A stretch of 64,000 nt of DNA, taken from contig NZ_CP060497.1 of NCBI RefSeq assembly GCF_014334135.1, positions 124,001 through 188,000 on the forward strand, written 5' to 3'. Origin of the DNA: Olivibacter sp. SDN3 (GTDB lineage: Bacteria > Bacteroidota > Bacteroidia > Sphingobacteriales > Sphingobacteriaceae). How positions within the stretch are numbered: position 1 is the first letter of the stretch; every line of letters starts with the position of its first letter. The notes beneath the pieces are model-generated. The model was given only the letters and a program-made list of their open reading frames with translations, was not told the origin of the DNA and ran no database searches. The translations under genes and the position numbers were made by a program. Below are positions 614 through 40,312 of the stretch, one piece after another.

Positions 614-1831
614 ATGCTGAGTAGAATTCTTTTTATCATTCCCATATGGATCATCGTAGATCTATATTTTTTTCAAGCCTTAAAAAGCGTTGTAGGTCAT
701 TGGCAACTACCTGCTAAACAAACCATTTATTGGGCATACTGGATGTTTGACCTATTGCTCATACTGTTCATCCTATACCTAAGTTTCATTGACTCAAAGA
801 TTATTCCGACACGTTACGGGTTCCTCTTCGTAGGTTTTGTATTTATCTCTATTATCCCAAAGTTATTTGCTTTACCTTTTCTGTTGTTAGAGGATTTGAC
901 CAGGCTAGGAAGTTATATTGTTCATTATAGCTCAGAAAAAACCTATCCAGAACGCCGCAGGTTTATAGGTCAACTTATACTGGGCATCAGTACCATTCCT
1001 TTTGGAGCAATCATATATGGTATGGCCAAAGGAAAATACAATTATAAAGTACATCGTAGCACACTATACTTTAAGGATTTACCCCAGACTTTTGATGGCT
1101 TTACTATTACCCAGCTTTCGGACATCCATTGTGGTAGTTTTACTGATCATACCGCAGTAAAACGGGGTATAGAGCTGGCAAACGCACAAAAAAGCGATTT
1201 AATGGTGTTAACCGGCGACCTTGTTAATAATGAAGCCGAAGAACTAGATGAATGGCAGAGCACTCTTGCCCGATTGAGTGCTCCTTTAGGCGTTTATTCT
1301 GTTTTGGGCAACCATGATTATGGTGATTACATCGCATGGCCATCATCAGACGCTAAGCAAGCTAATCTTAATCGTTTAAAAACCATGCAACGCGAGATGG
1401 GTTTCCGTCTGTTAATGGATGAGCATGTGAAAATTGAAAAAAACGGTCAGTTTTTTAACCTTGTCGGTATTCAGAACTGGGGCAAGAGTTTTGCTCAATA
1501 TGGTGATCTGCACAAATCGATGCAAACCGTCGAAGAGAACACCTTTTCTGTGCTGCTGTCGCATGACCCTACACATTGGGAAGCTCAGGCATTACAACAT
1601 CCCAAACCTATCCATCTCACATTGGCCGGACATACCCATGGTATGCAATTCGGCATTGAGATTCCCGGTTTGAGGTGGAGTCCAGTAAAATACATTTACA
1701 AACAATGGGCAGGCGTCTATAAGATAGGATTTAAATACATCAATGTTAACCGGGGTTTCGGTTTTATCGGTTTCTCCGGTAGAGTCGGGATCTGGCCAGA
1801 AATTTCTGTTATTACTTTACGAAAAGGATAA
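614..1831 (+). CDS. Membrane-anchored metallophosphoesterase (calcineurin-like)
   Basis: A 405-residue protein with three or four hydrophobic segments in about the first 100 residues, then a short linker, then a calcineurin-like phosphoesterase domain from about residue 160. The metal-binding motifs are in the usual order: DIHCG (about 170), GDLVNN (about 200), GNHDYG (about 232), SHDP (about 316) and GHTHG (about 339). This is the YkuE/YaeI-like branch of membrane-tethered phosphoesterases, some of which act on lipid or UDP-sugar phosphoesters. The substrate here is unknown. The ATG at 614 is followed at once by a hydrophobic segment, which supports the start. It is transcribed alone, ahead of the fluoride-controlled CLC gene. 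Confidence 0.9.
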   Translation: MLSRILFIIPIWIIVDLYFFQALKSVVGHWQLPAKQTIYWAYWMFDLLLILFILYLSFIDSKIIPTRYGFLFVGFVFISIIPKLFALPFLLLEDLTRLGSYIVHYSSEKTYPERRRFIGQLILGISTIPFGAIIYGMAKGKYNYKVHRSTLYFKDLPQTFDGFTITQLSDIHCGSFTDHTAVKRGIELANAQKSDLMVLTGDLVNNEAEELDEWQSTLARLSAPLGVYSVLGNHDYGDYIAWPSSDAKQANLNRLKTMQREMGFRLLMDEHVKIEKNGQFFNLVGIQNWGKSFAQYGDLHKSMQTVEENTFSVLLSHDPTHWEAQALQHPKPIHLTLAGHTHGMQFGIEIPGLRWSPVKYIYKQWAGVYKIGFKYINVNRGFGFIGFSGRVGIWPEISVITLRKG

Positions 1832-1961
1832 ATAGGTATAAAATTTCAGACTGAATATTGTGCTTGGATAAAATAACGAACACTTCTAAAAAGCAATTAC
1901 TGATTAAATTTATTTTCATCGGCGTTCGTGAATGTCACGCTTTTTGCCTAAGTTTACCTCA

Positions 1962-2014
1962 CGGAAATGATGCCTTCCGACTGAACCGCCCTAAAAAGCT
2001 GATGGCGTCTACTG
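1962..2014 (+). promoter_or_regulatory. Fluoride riboswitch (crcB motif) upstream of the CLC gene
   Basis: The segment fits the fluoride aptamer. CGGAA (1962-1966) pairs with TTCCG (1975-1979) as stem P1. The loop sequence GATGCC (1969-1974) can pair with GGCGTC (2004-2009) to form the pseudoknot. Between them lie AACCGCC and the nearly invariant GCTGATGG block followed by CTACTG. Laid against the Thermotoga petrophila aptamer as I remember it, the order of elements and most conserved bases agree. The inner P2 stem is weak (only two clear G-C pairs). It lies 66 bases before the CLC start at 2080. Fluoride exporters are the usual targets, so the context agrees. I had no covariance model to run. 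Confidence 0.85.
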
Positions 2015-2025
2015 AATCAATGTAT

Positions 2026-2054
2026 ATAAGCAGCAAATGTGCTTATTGCATTTG
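2026..2054 (+). promoter_or_regulatory. Candidate expression platform: two mutually exclusive hairpins
   Basis: Directly after the aptamer, ATAAGCA (2026-2032) is complementary to TGCTTAT (2040-2046), a 7-bp hairpin. CAAATG (2034-2039), which lies in the loop of that hairpin, is complementary to CATTTG (2049-2054), a 6-bp hairpin whose loop swallows the first hairpin's right arm. Simple nested folding allows only one at a time. Neither is followed by a U-run, so the switch would act on translation or by another route rather than by a classical terminator. This is inferred from base pairing only. Confidence 0.45.
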
Positions 2055-2079
2055 TAGACACTTTATTAGCTTTATTATC

Positions 2080-3384
2080 ATGGCACACAAGTTTCATCAA
2101 TCTTTTGAACAAATTCGCATTTTTAAAAGCCTTGTCCGTTGGACGGTCATTCTTTTACCTGTATCAGTCAGTATAGGTTCTGTAGTTGCCTTCTTTTTAT
2201 GGTTATTAAACGCAGCCACCCATTTTCGTTTTCAGTATCCCTGGCTTCTTTATTTTTTGCCATTAATTGGACTACTTATTCATTTTATCTACAAGTTTTG
2301 TGGTAAAACTTCCGAAAAAGGAAACAACCTCATTCTCGAAGAGGTTCATACACCTGGAGAAGGCATACCTAAGAGAATGGCACCAATCGTATTGGCAAGC
2401 ACGGTGCTCACCCATCTTTTCGGTGGATCAGCGGGCCGCGAGGGCACCGCCGTGCAGATCGGAGGGAGTCTCGCTCAAATGTTCAGTAAATGGTTTAAGT
2501 TAAACGCTCAAGAAACCTCTATATTATTGACTGCGGGGATAGCCGCCGGTTTTGGAGCCGTTTTCGGGACACCTTTAACTGGTGCCATCTTTGCACTAGA
2601 GGTGCTCGCCATTGGTAGGATACAGTATTACGCAGTTTTTCCCTGTCTGGTAGCGAGTTTAGTTGGTGATCTGACAGTATCTGCATGGCAGATACACCAT
2701 ACCACTTACCGAATAGATACACTCGACATACCCAATTTATTCGAAACTTACTTTTCCTTAAACATATTACTTATGGTAAAGGTAGTGGTCGCTTCCATTG
2801 CTTTTGGTTTAGCAAGCCTATTGTTTGCACAATTAATCCATCGCTTGAGAAAATTTTTTCTAAACTTTATTTCACACACTTGGCTTATTCCTATTATTGG
2901 AGGTATAGTGATTATACTACTAACGGTTATTTTAGGGAAACCAGATTACCTTGGTTTAGGGGTGGATACAATATATCCTGGAGCAACCACAATTCCATCG
3001 GCTTTTACGGCGGGTGGAGCAGATACCTGGAGCTGGCTTTGGAAAACTATTTACACCGCCTTTACGCTTAGTACAGGCTTTAAAGGTGGAGAAGTTACCC
3101 CGCTATTTTATATCGGCGCTACTTTCGGTAATGTCTTGTCTATATTACTGAATGCACCTGTTAGCCTTTTCGCTGCATTGGGCTTTATTGCCGTTTTCGC
3201 AGGTGCTACGAATACACCGTTGGCATGCACCATCATGGGCGTCGAACTTTTTGGGGGGGAGTATCTGATTTACTTTGCCATTGCCTGTTATACCGCTTAT
3301 TTTTTTAGTGGGCATTGTGGTATTTATAGTGCGCAAAAAACAGCCATACCGAAAGGGAAGCCCTATCATCGAGAAATTGATTAA
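2080..3384 (+). CDS. CLC-family chloride/fluoride channel or antiporter (CLC-F candidate)
   Basis: A 434-residue polytopic protein of the CLC family. The selectivity motifs are visible: GEGIP (about residue 92), GREGT (about 119, carrying the gating glutamate), GFGAVFGTPLTG (about 157) and GGEVTP (about 335). GREGT in place of GKEGP is a feature I associate with the fluoride/proton antiporter branch. I chose ATG 2080 (MAHKFHQSF). A longer open frame from 1858 would place the riboswitch inside the coding region and adds a stretch with no CLC similarity. The upstream fluoride aptamer indicates that the gene is induced by fluoride and that the protein exports F-. Chloride transport is the alternative. 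Confidence 0.9.
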   Translation: MAHKFHQSFEQIRIFKSLVRWTVILLPVSVSIGSVVAFFLWLLNAATHFRFQYPWLLYFLPLIGLLIHFIYKFCGKTSEKGNNLILEEVHTPGEGIPKRMAPIVLASTVLTHLFGGSAGREGTAVQIGGSLAQMFSKWFKLNAQETSILLTAGIAAGFGAVFGTPLTGAIFALEVLAIGRIQYYAVFPCLVASLVGDLTVSAWQIHHTTYRIDTLDIPNLFETYFSLNILLMVKVVVASIAFGLASLLFAQLIHRLRKFFLNFISHTWLIPIIGGIVIILLTVILGKPDYLGLGVDTIYPGATTIPSAFTAGGADTWSWLWKTIYTAFTLSTGFKGGEVTPLFYIGATFGNVLSILLNAPVSLFAALGFIAVFAGATNTPLACTIMGVELFGGEYLIYFAIACYTAYFFSGHCGIYSAQKTAIPKGKPYHREID

Positions 3385-3405
3385 AACAAATGTAGGAGAG
3401 GAATG

Positions 3406-4191
3406 CTAAGTGCAACTATTCCTAATGTAACACTCTTCATATTCGCCAACCACTTCAAAACCCATTTTTTTATAACACTTGATTGCTGCGTGGTTATCTG
3501 ATTTCACATTTAATCCGATAAAATTAACACTTCTATTTAATTCTGCACAAAGTTTTGATACTAGCTTCGTTCCTATTTGCTGCCCTCGGTGATCTGGATG
3601 CGTTGCGATATTACCCAGGGCAGCTACCTTAAATTCAGCTGAATATACATGAACACCTGCAAGCCCCACTAATTTATTGTCGAGAAAATATCCAAAATAC
3701 TTTTCCGTTTCCATCATTCGCTCATCAAACCAATTATCTGGATAAGCTATTGCATAAAAATTCCGAATTAACGACAGCTCATTTACTGTTAATCGCCTGA
3801 TATTTTCATCCACTATTGTTAGCGCTTCTTTCTTTAATAACATTTTATAATGGAATCCATAATATTCAATTACATGCTTCCTGCCAAACACATCGATTAA
3901 ATCAGGGCTGAGATGTGCCAAAAATTTGCCCGGAAGATTCGATTTAATCCGTTTCAATAATTCAACAGCATAATCTGCGTTATTTTCGTAAAACGTTAAA
4001 AGTGTTGGTATTTGCATACCGGTGTACAGCAAAGCGATAGATAGGATATCGTTATTCTTCACTAGGCCATACCAAATGGTTTTTGACCAGAAAAATTCAT
4101 CCAAATCACCAATACAATATATTTGAATGGCTGTATTTTTCTTTAAAAAATTTAATATAGGTTTTTTGTTATGTAAGATCTGAATTTCCAC
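3406..4191 (-). CDS. GNAT-family N-acetyltransferase
   Basis: A 261-residue protein with a C-terminal GNAT domain. The acetyl-CoA-binding motif A is seen as the strand VAALGNIATHPDHRGQQIGT (about residues 188-207), with the R/QxxGxG loop RGQQIG, followed by a helix and the NVKSDNHAAIKCYKKMGF motif B end. The N-terminal 130 residues look like the extra N-terminal GNAT-like half found in two-domain members. The only start that uses the full fold is GTG at 4191 (MEIQILHN). It converges on the CLC gene with a 21-base gap and is separate from the GH140-like gene upstream. The substrate is unknown. Confidence 0.85.
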   Translation of the reverse strand: MEIQILHNKKPILNFLKKNTAIQIYCIGDLDEFFWSKTIWYGLVKNNDILSIALLYTGMQIPTLLTFYENNADYAVELLKRIKSNLPGKFLAHLSPDLIDVFGRKHVIEYYGFHYKMLLKKEALTIVDENIRRLTVNELSLIRNFYAIAYPDNWFDERMMETEKYFGYFLDNKLVGLAGVHVYSAEFKVAALGNIATHPDHRGQQIGTKLVSKLCAELNRSVNFIGLNVKSDNHAAIKCYKKMGFEVVGEYEECYIRNSCT

Positions 4192-4349: not shown

Positions 4350-5750
4350 TCACTTCCCTGGGGGGGCATACTTTTTTTCGGCATCATCAATAACCAATAC
4401 CCAATCATTTCCTTCCCCTTCGGTTGGTGAGGTAAAAGCCATCCTATTCAACCGGTTCGCAGTTCCAATTTTCGCTATCTCTCCATTTTTCGGATTATAC
4501 CACCAGGTTGTAATCTGTTTAGCCTTCGTGAAAGAAGTATTGACTTCTACCGTTCGGCCAATTGGTAGATAGATCATTGCATAACCATTTTCATCTCCCC
4601 GAAAAGCCTCTATATGTGTAGCATTTTCTCCTTTATCGCCCGCAACAATGGTGGAGTCGGGCACTCGCTTTTGCATCGGTCGCGATTCCATTAAATTTCG
4701 TAAATAACCTACTTGGAAAGCACCTGGACGATCCATTGCATTCCTCCAACCCCGATCGGCAAAATTAATAACCTCCTCCCGATCTCCCATAAATTGCCAA
4801 ATGGCGTGATGCCCATAAGTGACACCACAAGCGCCGGCAAATACAGAACGGTAACACTGTTTTCTAACATCATAGTCGCGGAAGTACCCATTATCGGGAT
4901 TCCATTTCGGCCAAGGGTTTACGGGATGATCTTCATAATTTGGCTCGGCATCTAGGGTAGGTTTTGAAGGATGCTTTTCTCTGTCATACTTTACGGTTTC
5001 CCAATTAGCTACATCTCGCCCACTTCCATGGCCTGATTGGAACATGTTTAAACCCAGCCATTTTTCCTCATGAAACCACTGAGAAGTAGAAATATTCCCT
5101 CCAGATGGATGATAGGTTATCAAGCAGCTGTCTTTAGTAGCTTCACTAATACCCCTTGCCATCGCTCTCCATAGTGAACGCCAGTCACCCTTATCGGCAA
5201 TTGCAGGCCTATCACCCCCCAATATCCAGATAATGTTCTTATAAATTTTATAACGCTCTCCTAGCCATGCCCCATAGTGATATGCGTTTACCGTGTCAAA
5301 AACTACCGGTCCGACACCCCAATCAGGCGTTACCTTATCTCCCCATGTAGGCAGTAATCCTACAAACATATTCCGGTCTCCCGCCATTTCTATCGTGCTA
5401 TCGATTATCGCAAAATATCGGTCGTTCGGCTTTGTTGGATCATCATTTTTGAAAGGAGTTTCTCCATATCTATTCGGCACATGTAGTCCATCAAATTCGG
5501 CCAAGGCGACAGCTTGAATAACAGTGAACCCTTTCGCCGAACGATTATCAAGGTATTCTCTTATTTCTGCTAAGTTAAGGCGATGAAACAATTCCCAGCC
5601 GGTATCTCCAAGCCAAAAAAAGGGGCTACCATCTTCATACTGGAGATCGTGTCCATTTGGCACAATTCGCATCTTCTTTTTATCTAAATCTTGTGCGATA
5701 AGCACGGCATGCGCCAAAAAGCTAAACGTAATTAAGATGAATTGTTTCAT
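4350..5750 (-). CDS. GH140-like glycoside hydrolase (DUF4038, apiosidase-like), exported
   Basis: A 466-residue protein with a signal peptide (first 19 residues, ending LIAQ). The catalytic barrel of the DUF4038/GH140 family follows, starting at [18 protein letters not shown]. The ILGGDRP motif (Asp about 178) and DAEPNYED (Glu about 265) fit the general acid and nucleophile positions of the family. The C-terminal 90 residues match the small beta-sandwich usually annotated as a putative collagen-binding domain of a collagenase. Characterised members are endo-apiosidases that act on pectic rhamnogalacturonan II side chains. The gene stands alone here, not next to a SusCD pair. A run of seven C residues lies five codons before the stop and would only affect the last few residues if it slipped. 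Confidence 0.85.
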
Positions 5751-6865: not shown

Positions 6866-9154
6866 TCAGGCAGGTTTCATGATCAAAACCGACGGTGTTT
6901 TAGATAGCCAGACACTTCTCGTCTCCAACGCTCTCTTCCAACTGCTCAAACTGATGACCATCAAATCATGTGTTGTCAATATTTCCGTATCCATCTTGTC
7001 TTTATGAAGCCAAACCAAGTGATCAGGAGCTACCTGTTGCACCGCTCTTATGGATTCCTTAAACTCCACGTCTTGCTTGATCGTTCCTACGATATCCAAT
7101 AACGTTACCTTCACCTGTCCATTGTGTATAAGTTTTTGTATGTAGATTAAAAGAAAACTATCACTCAGAGAGAAGATAGGAACAATTACCTGTTTGACCT
7201 CTTGGAGTTTCTTATCAATCAGAATCCCTGTTGGAATTTTGGTTGACCGGAGAAGCTGTTTTGTCCGCTCGTCAAAGACTCCCATCGCGAAGGGATTTTC
7301 TTTACCCGTAATCGTGCCATATAACCTTTCTGGATTAATTACCCGAGTGGTAAAACCCAATATTTTACCTAAAAAAGTACCCTCAAAAACCGACTGACCT
7401 ATGCCTATTAAAAGCAAATCGAAGTCGCCCTCATTTGCCGTTTCAACAATTTCTTCGTCAATGTTTTGTGAAGGTTTAAAAAGAGATATAACCGGCTGAT
7501 CAAGATGATTTGCTTCTTCCTTAATTGGAGCGAAACTTTCCCGTTCGTATTCACCAGCGTTGAATTGCGTTAACTCGTTTCCCGGCGACAAATGTAGCGC
7601 GGTGATGGTCGCCGACTCTTTGGATTTTCTAATCAAGGCATTCGCAAGACGAACTAAAAGTTTTCCGGTCAACGGGTTTCCAAAGGAAATTAAAATATTA
7701 TATTTATCCTTTTGACTGAGTTCTACGATCAAACCATCTTCTTTGTTGAAGAGTTTATTGATGAGGTCAAGTGCAGGTCCCGTCATAAAAGTGGTGATGA
7801 GAGCCATTAATACGAGCATAGCAAACATTTCTGGGCTCAGCACACCCAAATCATAACCAATGTTTAGGGCTACAAGCTCCATCAGTCCCCGCGTATTCAT
7901 TAAGGCCCCTATGGTAAGGCTGCTGTGCCAATTTTGTCCTACAAATCGTGCGGCAAGCGCACTGCCAAGAAACTTACCCGTTACAGCCACCAATATTACC
8001 ACTATACACAACTTCCACATACCTGGTTCATTAAGCAGGCCTATCTGCGTTCTCAACCCAGTAAACACAAAAAACAGTGGCAACAGTAACACCAACGCTA
8101 CATCTTCCACCTTATCAACAAATACATTTCTGAATTTGACATTTGCCGGCATGATTACGCCAGCCATAAATGCACCGAAAAGCGCATGAATACCAATAAC
8201 TTCCGTACACCAAGCAGAAAGCAACAATGTAACAAAGAAAATCCCTACAATAGGTTTACTCAAAGCTTCTTTATTGGTATAAATATCACCTATACGCCGC
8301 AAAAAAGGTCTTACAAATCGCAGCATCACAAATACATAAGCAACTGCTAACAATATGGTATAACCCGCACTTAAGAATGAACCTGCTTTCACAATGGCAA
8401 TAACCGCTGCTAAAATGCACCAAGCAGTAATATCATCTGCTGCTGCGCATGTAATCACGATAGACCCCAATCGACTTCTGGTGAGTCCTCGTTCCTGCAC
8501 AATTCGGGCAAGCACCGGAAAAGCAGTGATACTCATAGAAATTCCGATGAACAATGCAAATGAAATAAAGTTGATTCCCTCCGGAGCCATACTCTCATAA
8601 ATGAAATAGGCAAATAGTACGCCCAGAGCAAAGGGAAAAATAATACTGGCGTGACTGATAACAACTGCTTCATGAGCTTGATTACGCAATACCTTTAAAT
8701 CCAGCTCCATGCCAACAACGAACATAAACAAAATCAATCCGATTTGGCTCATGACGCCCAGGTTACCTAAAGAAGACTCCGGAAAAAGAAAAACCGAAAA
8801 TTCGGGAAAATAATAGCCCACGATTGATGGACCTAAAAAGATCCCAGCTACAATTTCTCCAATGACAGACGGTTGCCCAATTTTCTTGCAGAAATAACCA
8901 AAAATCCTTGCTACTAATATGATGGTAATAATCTGTAATAAAAGGATAGCCAACGGGTATTTTACGTTATCTATGAGCCCTTCTATAAAATGACTCCAAC
9001 TGGAAGAATTCGCATCAAATGAGGTATTCATCAATTGCGTATTTTCCAATGCTGCGCCCTTATAGATCGTTAAATAGATCAGTGCCGACAGTCCTCCTAT
9101 TACACTTATATAAAATATTACATTTCTGATTTTCCTCATAACCGCAGATGCCAT
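6866..9154 (-). CDS. Kef-type cation/proton antiporter (CPA2) with cytoplasmic Usp-like tail
   Basis: A 762-residue protein. The first membrane segment is at residues 10-30. The Na+/H+ exchanger domain follows (about 70-460), with about a dozen helices and recognisable CPA2 stretches such as GQPSVIGEIVAGIFLGPSIV, GLILFMFVVGMELDL and CAAADDITAWCIL, where the paired acidic residues (DD) are the ion-coupling site. From about residue 475 the protein is soluble, with a universal-stress-protein-like fold (YNILISFGNPLTGKLLVRLA) that ends LSKTPSVLIMKPA. This replaces the RCK/KTN domain of KefB/C. It probably exchanges K+ or Na+ for H+ in the inner membrane. A small HMA-like gene follows on the same strand. 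Confidence 0.9.
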   Translation of the reverse strand: MASAVMRKIRNVIFYISVIGGLSALIYLTIYKGAALENTQLMNTSFDANSSSWSHFIEGLIDNVKYPLAILLLQIITIILVARIFGYFCKKIGQPSVIGEIVAGIFLGPSIVGYYFPEFSVFLFPESSLGNLGVMSQIGLILFMFVVGMELDLKVLRNQAHEAVVISHASIIFPFALGVLFAYFIYESMAPEGINFISFALFIGISMSITAFPVLARIVQERGLTRSRLGSIVITCAAADDITAWCILAAVIAIVKAGSFLSAGYTILLAVAYVFVMLRFVRPFLRRIGDIYTNKEALSKPIVGIFFVTLLLSAWCTEVIGIHALFGAFMAGVIMPANVKFRNVFVDKVEDVALVLLLPLFFVFTGLRTQIGLLNEPGMWKLCIVVILVAVTGKFLGSALAARFVGQNWHSSLTIGALMNTRGLMELVALNIGYDLGVLSPEMFAMLVLMALITTFMTGPALDLINKLFNKEDGLIVELSQKDKYNILISFGNPLTGKLLVRLANALIRKSKESATITALHLSPGNELTQFNAGEYERESFAPIKEEANHLDQPVISLFKPSQNIDEEIVETANEGDFDLLLIGIGQSVFEGTFLGKILGFTTRVINPERLYGTITGKENPFAMGVFDERTKQLLRSTKIPTGILIDKKLQEVKQVIVPIFSLSDSFLLIYIQKLIHNGQVKVTLLDIVGTIKQDVEFKESIRAVQQVAPDHLVWLHKDKMDTEILTTHDLMVISLSSWKRALETRSVWLSKTPSVLIMKPA

Positions 9155-40241: not shown

Positions 40242-40312
40242 AAGCCGCGGGCAGATTCGAACTGCCGTAGAAGGTTTTGCAGACCTCAACCTAACCACTC
40301 GGCCACGCGGCT
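40242..40312 (-). tRNA. tRNA-Cys (GCA anticodon)
   Basis: A 71-base cloverleaf on the minus strand. The acceptor stem is AGCCGCG/CGCGGCT with discriminator T, as expected for Cys. The D arm contains GAGTGGTTAGG, the anticodon loop is CTGCAAA (anticodon GCA), and the T loop is TTCGAATC. The CCA end is not encoded. It lies between the GH43 and PhyH genes. Confidence 0.95.

Follow-up and report, generated by a model that had tools for sequence, protein, structure and literature searches.

A fluoride riboswitch ahead of a CLC-F gene in Olivibacter sp. SDN3 and a predicted Shine–Dalgarno-free switch over the start region

By what means might a riboswitch gate translation in a phylum whose mRNAs are described as lacking Shine–Dalgarno sequences, and in which initiation is reported to track low structure around the start codon and the presence of A at positions −3 and −6 (PMC6847099, PMC7366714)? 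The question is raised by a locus of Olivibacter sp. SDN3, family Sphingobacteriaceae, that lies in a stretch of 64,000 nucleotides (the window, in whose numbering positions are given) and for which an earlier note, made from the letters alone, had proposed a fluoride riboswitch in control of a CLC gene.

All elements of the fluoride aptamer were found in order, as the earlier note had claimed, and their letters were confirmed: the P1 stem (CGGAA at 1962–1966 with UUCCG at 1975–1979), the pseudoknot (GAUGCC with GGCGUC at 2004–2009, A1970 pairing with U2008), GCUGAUGG at 1998–2005 and CUACUG at 2009–2014; the 3' strand of the aptamer, GGCGUCUAC, occupies 2004–2012. The comparison with Rfam RF01734 that had been proposed as a check gave a significant result, the cmscan search of the whole window returning a forward-strand match at 1954–2018 with 39.3 bits against a gathering cut-off of 34 (E 2.3e-7) and an alignment covering the full length of the model (positions 1–64). 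This match is the sole one above the cut-off, both within the window and in the genome of 6.1 Mb, and the identity of the element as a fluoride riboswitch is confirmed at the level of sequence. A second genomic candidate, C1:534999–535068 (26.4 bits), was rejected as probably a chance match, since it falls below the cut-off and is antisense to a 563-codon ORF. The second aptamer stem (P3) is weak, with two non-standard pairs marked in the RF01734 alignment, and the same short stem is recurrent in many relatives. The common form of the pseudoknot in the relatives is GGUGUC with GGCGCC, from which the window differs by a compensated change of G–C to A–U at A1970–U2008; this pair is G–C in 107, A–U in 19 and A–C in one of the 127 riboswitches (out of 128) in which the loop pattern was found.

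The protein encoded behind the aptamer matches PF00654 (Voltage_CLC) with 242.7 bits (7.9e-72), and among solved proteins it is closest to three CLC-F sequences (6d0j, 6d0k and 6d0n; E 1.7e-64 for 6d0j), other solved CLCs matching at 1.2e-10 or worse. The GREGT motif, previously pointed out as one associated with F−/H+ CLC antiporters, is present in the protein and is accompanied by GNNLI and GEVTP, the signatures of CLC-F being given as GNNLI/GMGLI, GREGT/V and GEVTP (PMC11139923, PMC5100911). The solved F−/H+ antiporter 6d0j shares GEVTP with the window protein over a nearly full-length match, but carries GMNLV and GREGV where the window protein has GNNLI and GREGT. The suggested tree was also built, from 43 CLC proteins that included all 29 CLC loci available beside the window's own, nine further matches having no locus, and it places the protein with CLC-F and apart from other CLCs: the 18 proteins with GREGT/V and GEVTP are split from the 25 others with a branch support of 100/99. 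The Olivibacter rows and the window protein form one group (100/100), the other CLC of the genome (L202) stands on the non-CLC-F side, and the long branches of L210, L222 and L209 make other joins in the tree unsure. A smaller tree, from which 16 loci were left out, agrees (19 versus 9). The window protein is likely to be an F−/H+ antiporter of the CLC-F type. It also appears to be the only fluoride exporter recognised in the genome, since a search there for CrcB/Fluc (PF02537) gave no match; 15 of the 26 genomes searched had one. Four of the five genomes of the genus that were searched (G000, G015, G052 and G063) contain the riboswitch and CLC-F with no CrcB match, and the fifth (G037) contains a CrcB match and neither a riboswitch match nor CLC-F.

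The longest ORF starts with TTG at 1858 and passes through the aptamer, and gene annotation by longest ORF would carry the CLC-F gene through its own riboswitch. The shift of the start to ATG 2080, proposed earlier, is supported, although not proved, by the alignment of this ATG in four Olivibacter loci; a further in-frame ATG is located at 2020. The start at 2080 has A at both −3 and −6. Just before the aptamer stands TAAGTTTA, which resembles the −7 consensus TAnnTTTG of Bacteroidota (PMC7366714), and because of this element the transcript should begin near the 5' edge of the aptamer. In the 22 nt preceding P1, an exact TAnnTTTG occurs in 32 of 54 cluster representatives and a version with five or more of the six specified bases in 51, against 2 % and 26 %, respectively, in base-shuffled upstream controls; an exact copy stands at the same distance in each of the other three Olivibacter loci. 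A general scan of 1800–3500 for promoter patterns returned four sites versus 4.5 by chance and was set aside. The unit probably consists of one gene, given that a phosphoesterase gene upstream stops at 1831 and an acetyltransferase gene (3406–4191, reverse strand) converges on it from downstream. The view that aptamer and CLC gene form a single coherent fluoride unit has gained support from the promoter-like element of its own, the convergent downstream gene and the position of the protein in the CLC-F clade. The features are collected in Table 1.

Table 1. Features of the putative fluoride-responsive unit in window coordinates
Feature	Position	Strand	Basis
Promoter −7 element-like TAAGTTTA (TAnnTTTG, 5/6 specified bases)	1949..1956	+	Ends 6 nt before P1
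Fluoride riboswitch aptamer, RF01734	1954..2018	+	39.3 bits, gathering 34, model 1–64
Pseudoknot 5' strand GAUGCC	1969..1974	+	Sequence; pair counts over 127 riboswitches
Aptamer 3' half AAAAAGCUGAUGGCGUCUAC, pseudoknot partner or, alternatively, putative OFF-helix 5' arm	1993..2012	+	Minimum-free-energy fold, pairing with 2054–2073
Putative OFF-helix strand GUAGAC, complementary to GUCUAC 2007–2012	2054..2059	+	Fold; kept in four Olivibacter loci; covariation over relatives
Putative second strand of the OFF helix, UUAUUAGCUUU, paired with AAGCUGAU in the aptamer	2063..2073	+	Fold; ends 6 nt before AUG
Probable CLC-F fluoride/proton antiporter gene, 434 codons, GNNLI/GREGT/GEVTP	2080..3384	+	PF00654, 6d0j match, trees

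The link between aptamer and gene is potentially provided by a helix that competes with the pseudoknot. In the minimum-free-energy fold of 1950–2100 (−35.5 kcal/mol; z −2.46, four of 200 shuffles reaching this stability), positions 2054–2073 are paired with the aptamer 3' half. When the aptamer strands were withheld in a fold of 1958–2110, this OFF helix was lost, the energy changed from −36.8 to −21.2 kcal/mol, pseudoknot and ligand energy not being counted, and the unpaired fraction of 2060–2077 rose from 0.30 to 0.65. The openness of AUG 2080 was the same in the OFF fold (0.62 versus 0.62) and only the upstream arm changed; the ligand-free helix of the window is predicted to cover the region before the AUG and not the AUG itself. 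The window is looser in this respect than most of its relatives, its AUG being separated from the core helix by 20 nt, a gap bridged by the second arm. The expected number of pairs between the aptamer 3' half and the start region is 18.5, compared with 2.6 (sd 3.95) for a shuffled tail, and one of 200 shuffles reaches 18.5; a plain duplex test with the narrow strand gave z −1.31, with 9 of 60 shuffles as good. The nearest loci, which are those of Olivibacter (77–80 % identical), have a similar arrangement: the three other leaders of the genus contain a near-identical aptamer and, after a linker that differs in length and sequence, GUAGAC and UAGCUU before the AUG. The same two-part helix is present in their minimum folds (z −3.02, −2.93 and −2.39), with 1, 1 and 6 of 200 shuffles as low.

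The fluoride riboswitch is widespread in the family, being matched in 104 of 201 Sphingobacteriaceae genomes (99 over the cut-off) and in 43 of 296 genomes drawn from the phylum (35 over the cut-off). The sample in which the helix was analysed comprised 183 loci (CLC loci, riboswitch-match loci and the window), of which 153 were distinct and 128 fit the core pattern; of the Sphingobacteriaceae riboswitch matches, 30 + 80 loci entered the sample and the rest were unused. The counts omit the 25 distinct loci without the core pattern, of which several show a clear CCUGAUUA...UAAUCAGG helix ahead of the AUG, and at least two of the 128 kept loci (L190 and L192) score under the Rfam cut-off. Within 120 nt, 92 of the 128 loci have a contiguous helix through CUAC/CUGC, and the exclusion of five helices more than 75 nt downstream left 87. 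The ends of these helices are closely associated with start codons. A start codon opening at least 20 codons lies at −4 to +3 of the helix end in 67 of the 87 (18.9 expected at random positions), at −4 to +10 in 79 (31.4 expected) and at −4 to +20 in 85 (45.6 expected). By class, GUG lies within the helix in 37 cases and AUG in one, AUG follows at 0 to 3 in 29, AUG or UUG at 4 to 10 in 11 and one, respectively, and AUG at 11 to 20 in six, among them the window (+20); two helices have none.

The pairing itself was assessed in several ways. The plain duplex test gave a median z of −1.82, with z below −2 in 51 of 128 loci and at most one of 60 shuffles as good in 38 of 128; as proof of the helix this score was dropped, being too weak for single loci, and ensemble pairing, covariation with the tested pair left out and start-codon placement were used for this reason. 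Among 80 loci in which the first ATG of the CLC gene was chosen regardless of the helix, the mean pairing was 10.9 versus 4.3 when shuffled, and 76 exceeded their own shuffle mean; taken singly in the ensemble test, 32 of the 80 were in the top 2 of 31. For the 34 cluster representatives of these loci, with the window scored from 2080, a mean of 11.1 pairs was obtained, compared with 3.7 for shuffled tails, 7.9 for tails swapped in from other clusters and 1.2 for the aptamer 5' half, with 31 clusters above the mean of shuffles (sign test, 8e-7) and 28 above the mean of swapped tails (2e-4). Since swapped tails still form 7.9 pairs, part of the complementarity, and indeed much of it, is common to the family. 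Three of the 34 clusters fail (L083, L096 and L165), the real start in L083 and L096 probably being the GUG in the helix. Among the 36 of 128 loci with no contiguous helix through CUAC, 31 have a CLC ATG, and 30 of these, many of them near relatives, exceed the shuffle mean. The loci are related, and the counts are thus not independent.

Covariation was analysed with the tested pair left out of the choice of helix, with one row per cluster and 2000 permutations. Position 2008 covaries with its OFF partner (C–G 26 and U–A 10 of 43, 36 of 43 Watson–Crick; 0 of 2000 permutations as good), as does 2011 (A–U 20, G–C 10 and G–U 5 of 37, 30 of 37 Watson–Crick; 0 of 2000) and also 2013 (A–U 25, U–A 4 and C–G 2 of 41, 31 of 41 Watson–Crick; 1 of 2000), at which the window itself is unpaired. 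Support is weak at 2014, where 20 of 2000 permutations were as good by pairing and 82 of 2000 by Watson–Crick pairing, and position 2007, paired in 32 of 37, varies with no covariation support, 743 of 2000 permutations doing equally well. Positions 2009, 2010 and 2012 are uninformative because the aptamer side is invariant. Position 2008 pairs in both the pseudoknot and the OFF helix, and, with the helix again chosen without that pair, the pseudoknot partner, the strand base and the OFF partner read G/C/G in 60, A/U/A in 7, A/U/G in 1 and otherwise in 6 of 74 loci. Where 2008 is C (n=65), pseudoknot partner and OFF partner are both G in 60; where it is U (n=9), A stands opposite it in the pseudoknot, and the OFF helix offers A in 7 cases and G in 1. 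Such three-way agreement is as predicted for two partners competing for one strand, and suggests that U2008 has to fit both the pseudoknot and the OFF helix, although the U forms are confined to a few lineages and so represent few independent changes.

Fluoride binding, switching, control at the step of translation, and transport are inferred from what the analysis shows: an aptamer match, a protein that belongs to CLC-F by sequence, and a predicted competing helix that is conserved, covaries and in the relatives usually sits at a start codon. We consider it quite probable that a fluoride-responsive ON switch controls the CLC-F exporter, most likely at translation initiation and without a Shine–Dalgarno sequence. 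Transcription would start near the 5' edge of the aptamer, and without fluoride the aptamer 3' half (1993–2012) would pair with leader positions 2054–2073, burying most of the 26 nt before AUG 2080. In the presence of Mg2+ and fluoride, the same aptamer strand would be held in the pseudoknot with 1969–1974, and the leader would open and become accessible to a ribosome that does not need a Shine–Dalgarno sequence but does need an unstructured start region. CLC-F would then be made and F− exported in exchange for H+. Covering the start region suffices to hinder initiation.

A transcriptional switch, in which the helix 2007–2012/2054–2059 would terminate transcription ahead of CLC-F, intrinsically or with the help of Rho, and fluoride would prevent this, is unlikely, though the most probable of the three alternatives. 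The stem of the window is followed by five U in 8 nt, as might be expected of a weak terminator, with no run of four U within 10 nt; five U in 8 nt follow 14 of the 87 helices, the window included, but TTTT within 10 nt follows only 7, and the search for six U in 8 nt gave 0 of 87. In four distant Bacteroidota loci (L238, L240, L248 and L250) a U-tract was seen by eye after the stem on the corresponding strand, and the phylum may use both platform types; moreover, translational riboswitches can be linked to Rho termination, according to work cited in PMC13273304. On the other hand, a start codon lies in the stem or within 3 nt of its end in 67 of 87 helices, an A-rich sequence follows the stem in the group with GUG, and neither of the two sites returned by a terminator pattern scan of 1800–3500 (shuffle mean 1.6) is on the OFF stem, a loop as large as this being missed at the loop limit of 8 used. 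It is on the U-tract counts and on the placement of start codons that translational control is preferred to termination.

A real aptamer with an incidental helix, control being exerted by the aptamer fold alone (e.g. through mRNA stability) or translation beginning at ATG 2020, is very improbable. The region 2019–2095 folded alone is no more stable than its shuffles (z 0.12), and the window scored from the in-frame ATG at 2020 shows 0.17 pairs with the aptamer 3' half; nevertheless, covariation and start-codon placement in the relatives speak against an incidental helix, and the ATG that corresponds to 2080 is, in each of the other three Olivibacter loci, the first one in the CLC frame downstream of the aptamer. 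That a chance resemblance or a decayed aptamer precedes an ordinary chloride CLC is hardly credible, for although the score exceeds the cut-off by only 5.3 bits and the second stem contains two non-standard pairs, RF01734 matches recur in the corresponding position of the other three Olivibacter loci (39.2–46.3 bits) and within the fetched DNA of 72 of the 80 CLC loci related to the window protein, which itself belongs to the CLC-F clade. In two of the eight aptamer-less loci (L081 and L082), contig coordinates indicate an aptamer that is cut by the locus edge or lies outside it.

Among the relatives of the window, the helix ends in GUG in 41 loci, and CLC was found in the fetched DNA of 37, the other four being left out of the frame comparison. 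The GUG is in frame with CLC in 12, its frame stops within 30 nt of the CLC ATG in 17 and earlier in 8, whereas the control frames gave, in the same order, 0, 2 and 35 (+1) and 0, 4 and 29 (+2), the latter with four later stops. This comparison of the GUG frame with the two other frames argues that the GUG in the helix is a real start from which the leader would be translated. In the eight loci with an earlier stop, CLC is more than 1.3 kb away in six and 367 nt away in L098, and L126 is a plain exception. Seven relatives (L066, L075, L078, L084, L097, L100 and L111), in which the helix lies about 40 nt behind the CUAC of the aptamer, contain GUG-started leader ORFs of 34–58 codons with a stop that adjoins or overlaps the CLC-F ATG; the leader ends in an 8-nt overlap of the ATGACTGA type in L060, L066, L078, L097 and L100 and in ATGA in L075. 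The overlap suggests translational coupling of the leader ORF to CLC-F, and these relatives offer a testable case of riboswitch-controlled translational coupling. In three other relatives (L057, L090 and L182), the leader ORF behind a fluoride aptamer ends at or near a gene starting ...AREILDSR or ...AREVLDSR, which by eye looks like enolase.

The aptamer and the CLC-F gene add one more example of a known pair, and it is the expression platform that appears to be of a new form and is the more useful part. The fluoride riboswitch of Pseudomonas syringae governs a CLC-F gene with ON logic. It shares with the window the aptamer, the pseudoknot and the sharing of the aptamer 3' strand with the expression platform, and differs in that the window would cover a start region without a Shine–Dalgarno sequence and its relatives the GUG start codon itself. 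Translational fluoride riboswitches, that of P. syringae and another, serve as controls in PMC13273304. In the transcriptional crcB riboswitch of Bacillus cereus (PMC11077080, PMC13273304) the aptamer strand likewise competes with a downstream hairpin, but the U-tract of this terminator type, sought as six U in 8 nt, is absent from all 87 helices examined here. The leader of ppe2 in Mycobacterium tuberculosis (PMC11260477) resembles the relatives with GUG leaders, where the arrangement is inferred, in that a riboswitch gates translation of a short ORF to which the real gene is coupled; it is a B12-responsive OFF switch, whereas the relatives here have fluoride riboswitches, and no leader ORF of this kind is present in the window. 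PMC13273304 presents a covariation model that joins the fluoride aptamer to its downstream hairpin and is taken there to span transcriptional and translational platforms, and strand sharing itself is therefore not new. The main text of that paper does not contain the terms 'Bacteroid' or 'Shine-Dalgarno', and among literature titles and the beginnings of abstracts, mostly outside subscription journals, no description of a Bacteroidetes fluoride platform was recognised.

On balance, the Sphingobacteriaceae seem to possess a class of Shine–Dalgarno-free fluoride platforms in which one strand of the pseudoknot would serve as an anti-start element, a single base (U2008 here) fitting both partners, and of which one branch would capture the GUG start of CLC-F or of a short coupled leader ORF; the window would represent the Olivibacter form, with a two-part helix over the start region. 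If true, the platform shows how a riboswitch gates translation in a phylum whose mRNAs lack Shine–Dalgarno sequences, and provides dozens of natural variants with compensatory changes that may be used for testing start-region masking.

Three further features of the window lie outside the fluoride unit. A protein of the Na+/H+ exchanger family (PF00999) is encoded at 6866–9154 on the reverse strand, 3.5 kb from the unit and with no RF01734 match near it; elsewhere, Na+/H+ antiporter genes are often associated with fluoride riboswitches (PMC11139923). An apiosidase-like glycosidase with a putative collagen-binding-type domain (PF13204, PF12904) is encoded at 4350–5750, and a tRNA gene (RF00005, 56.9 bits) lies at 40242–40312, both on the reverse strand.
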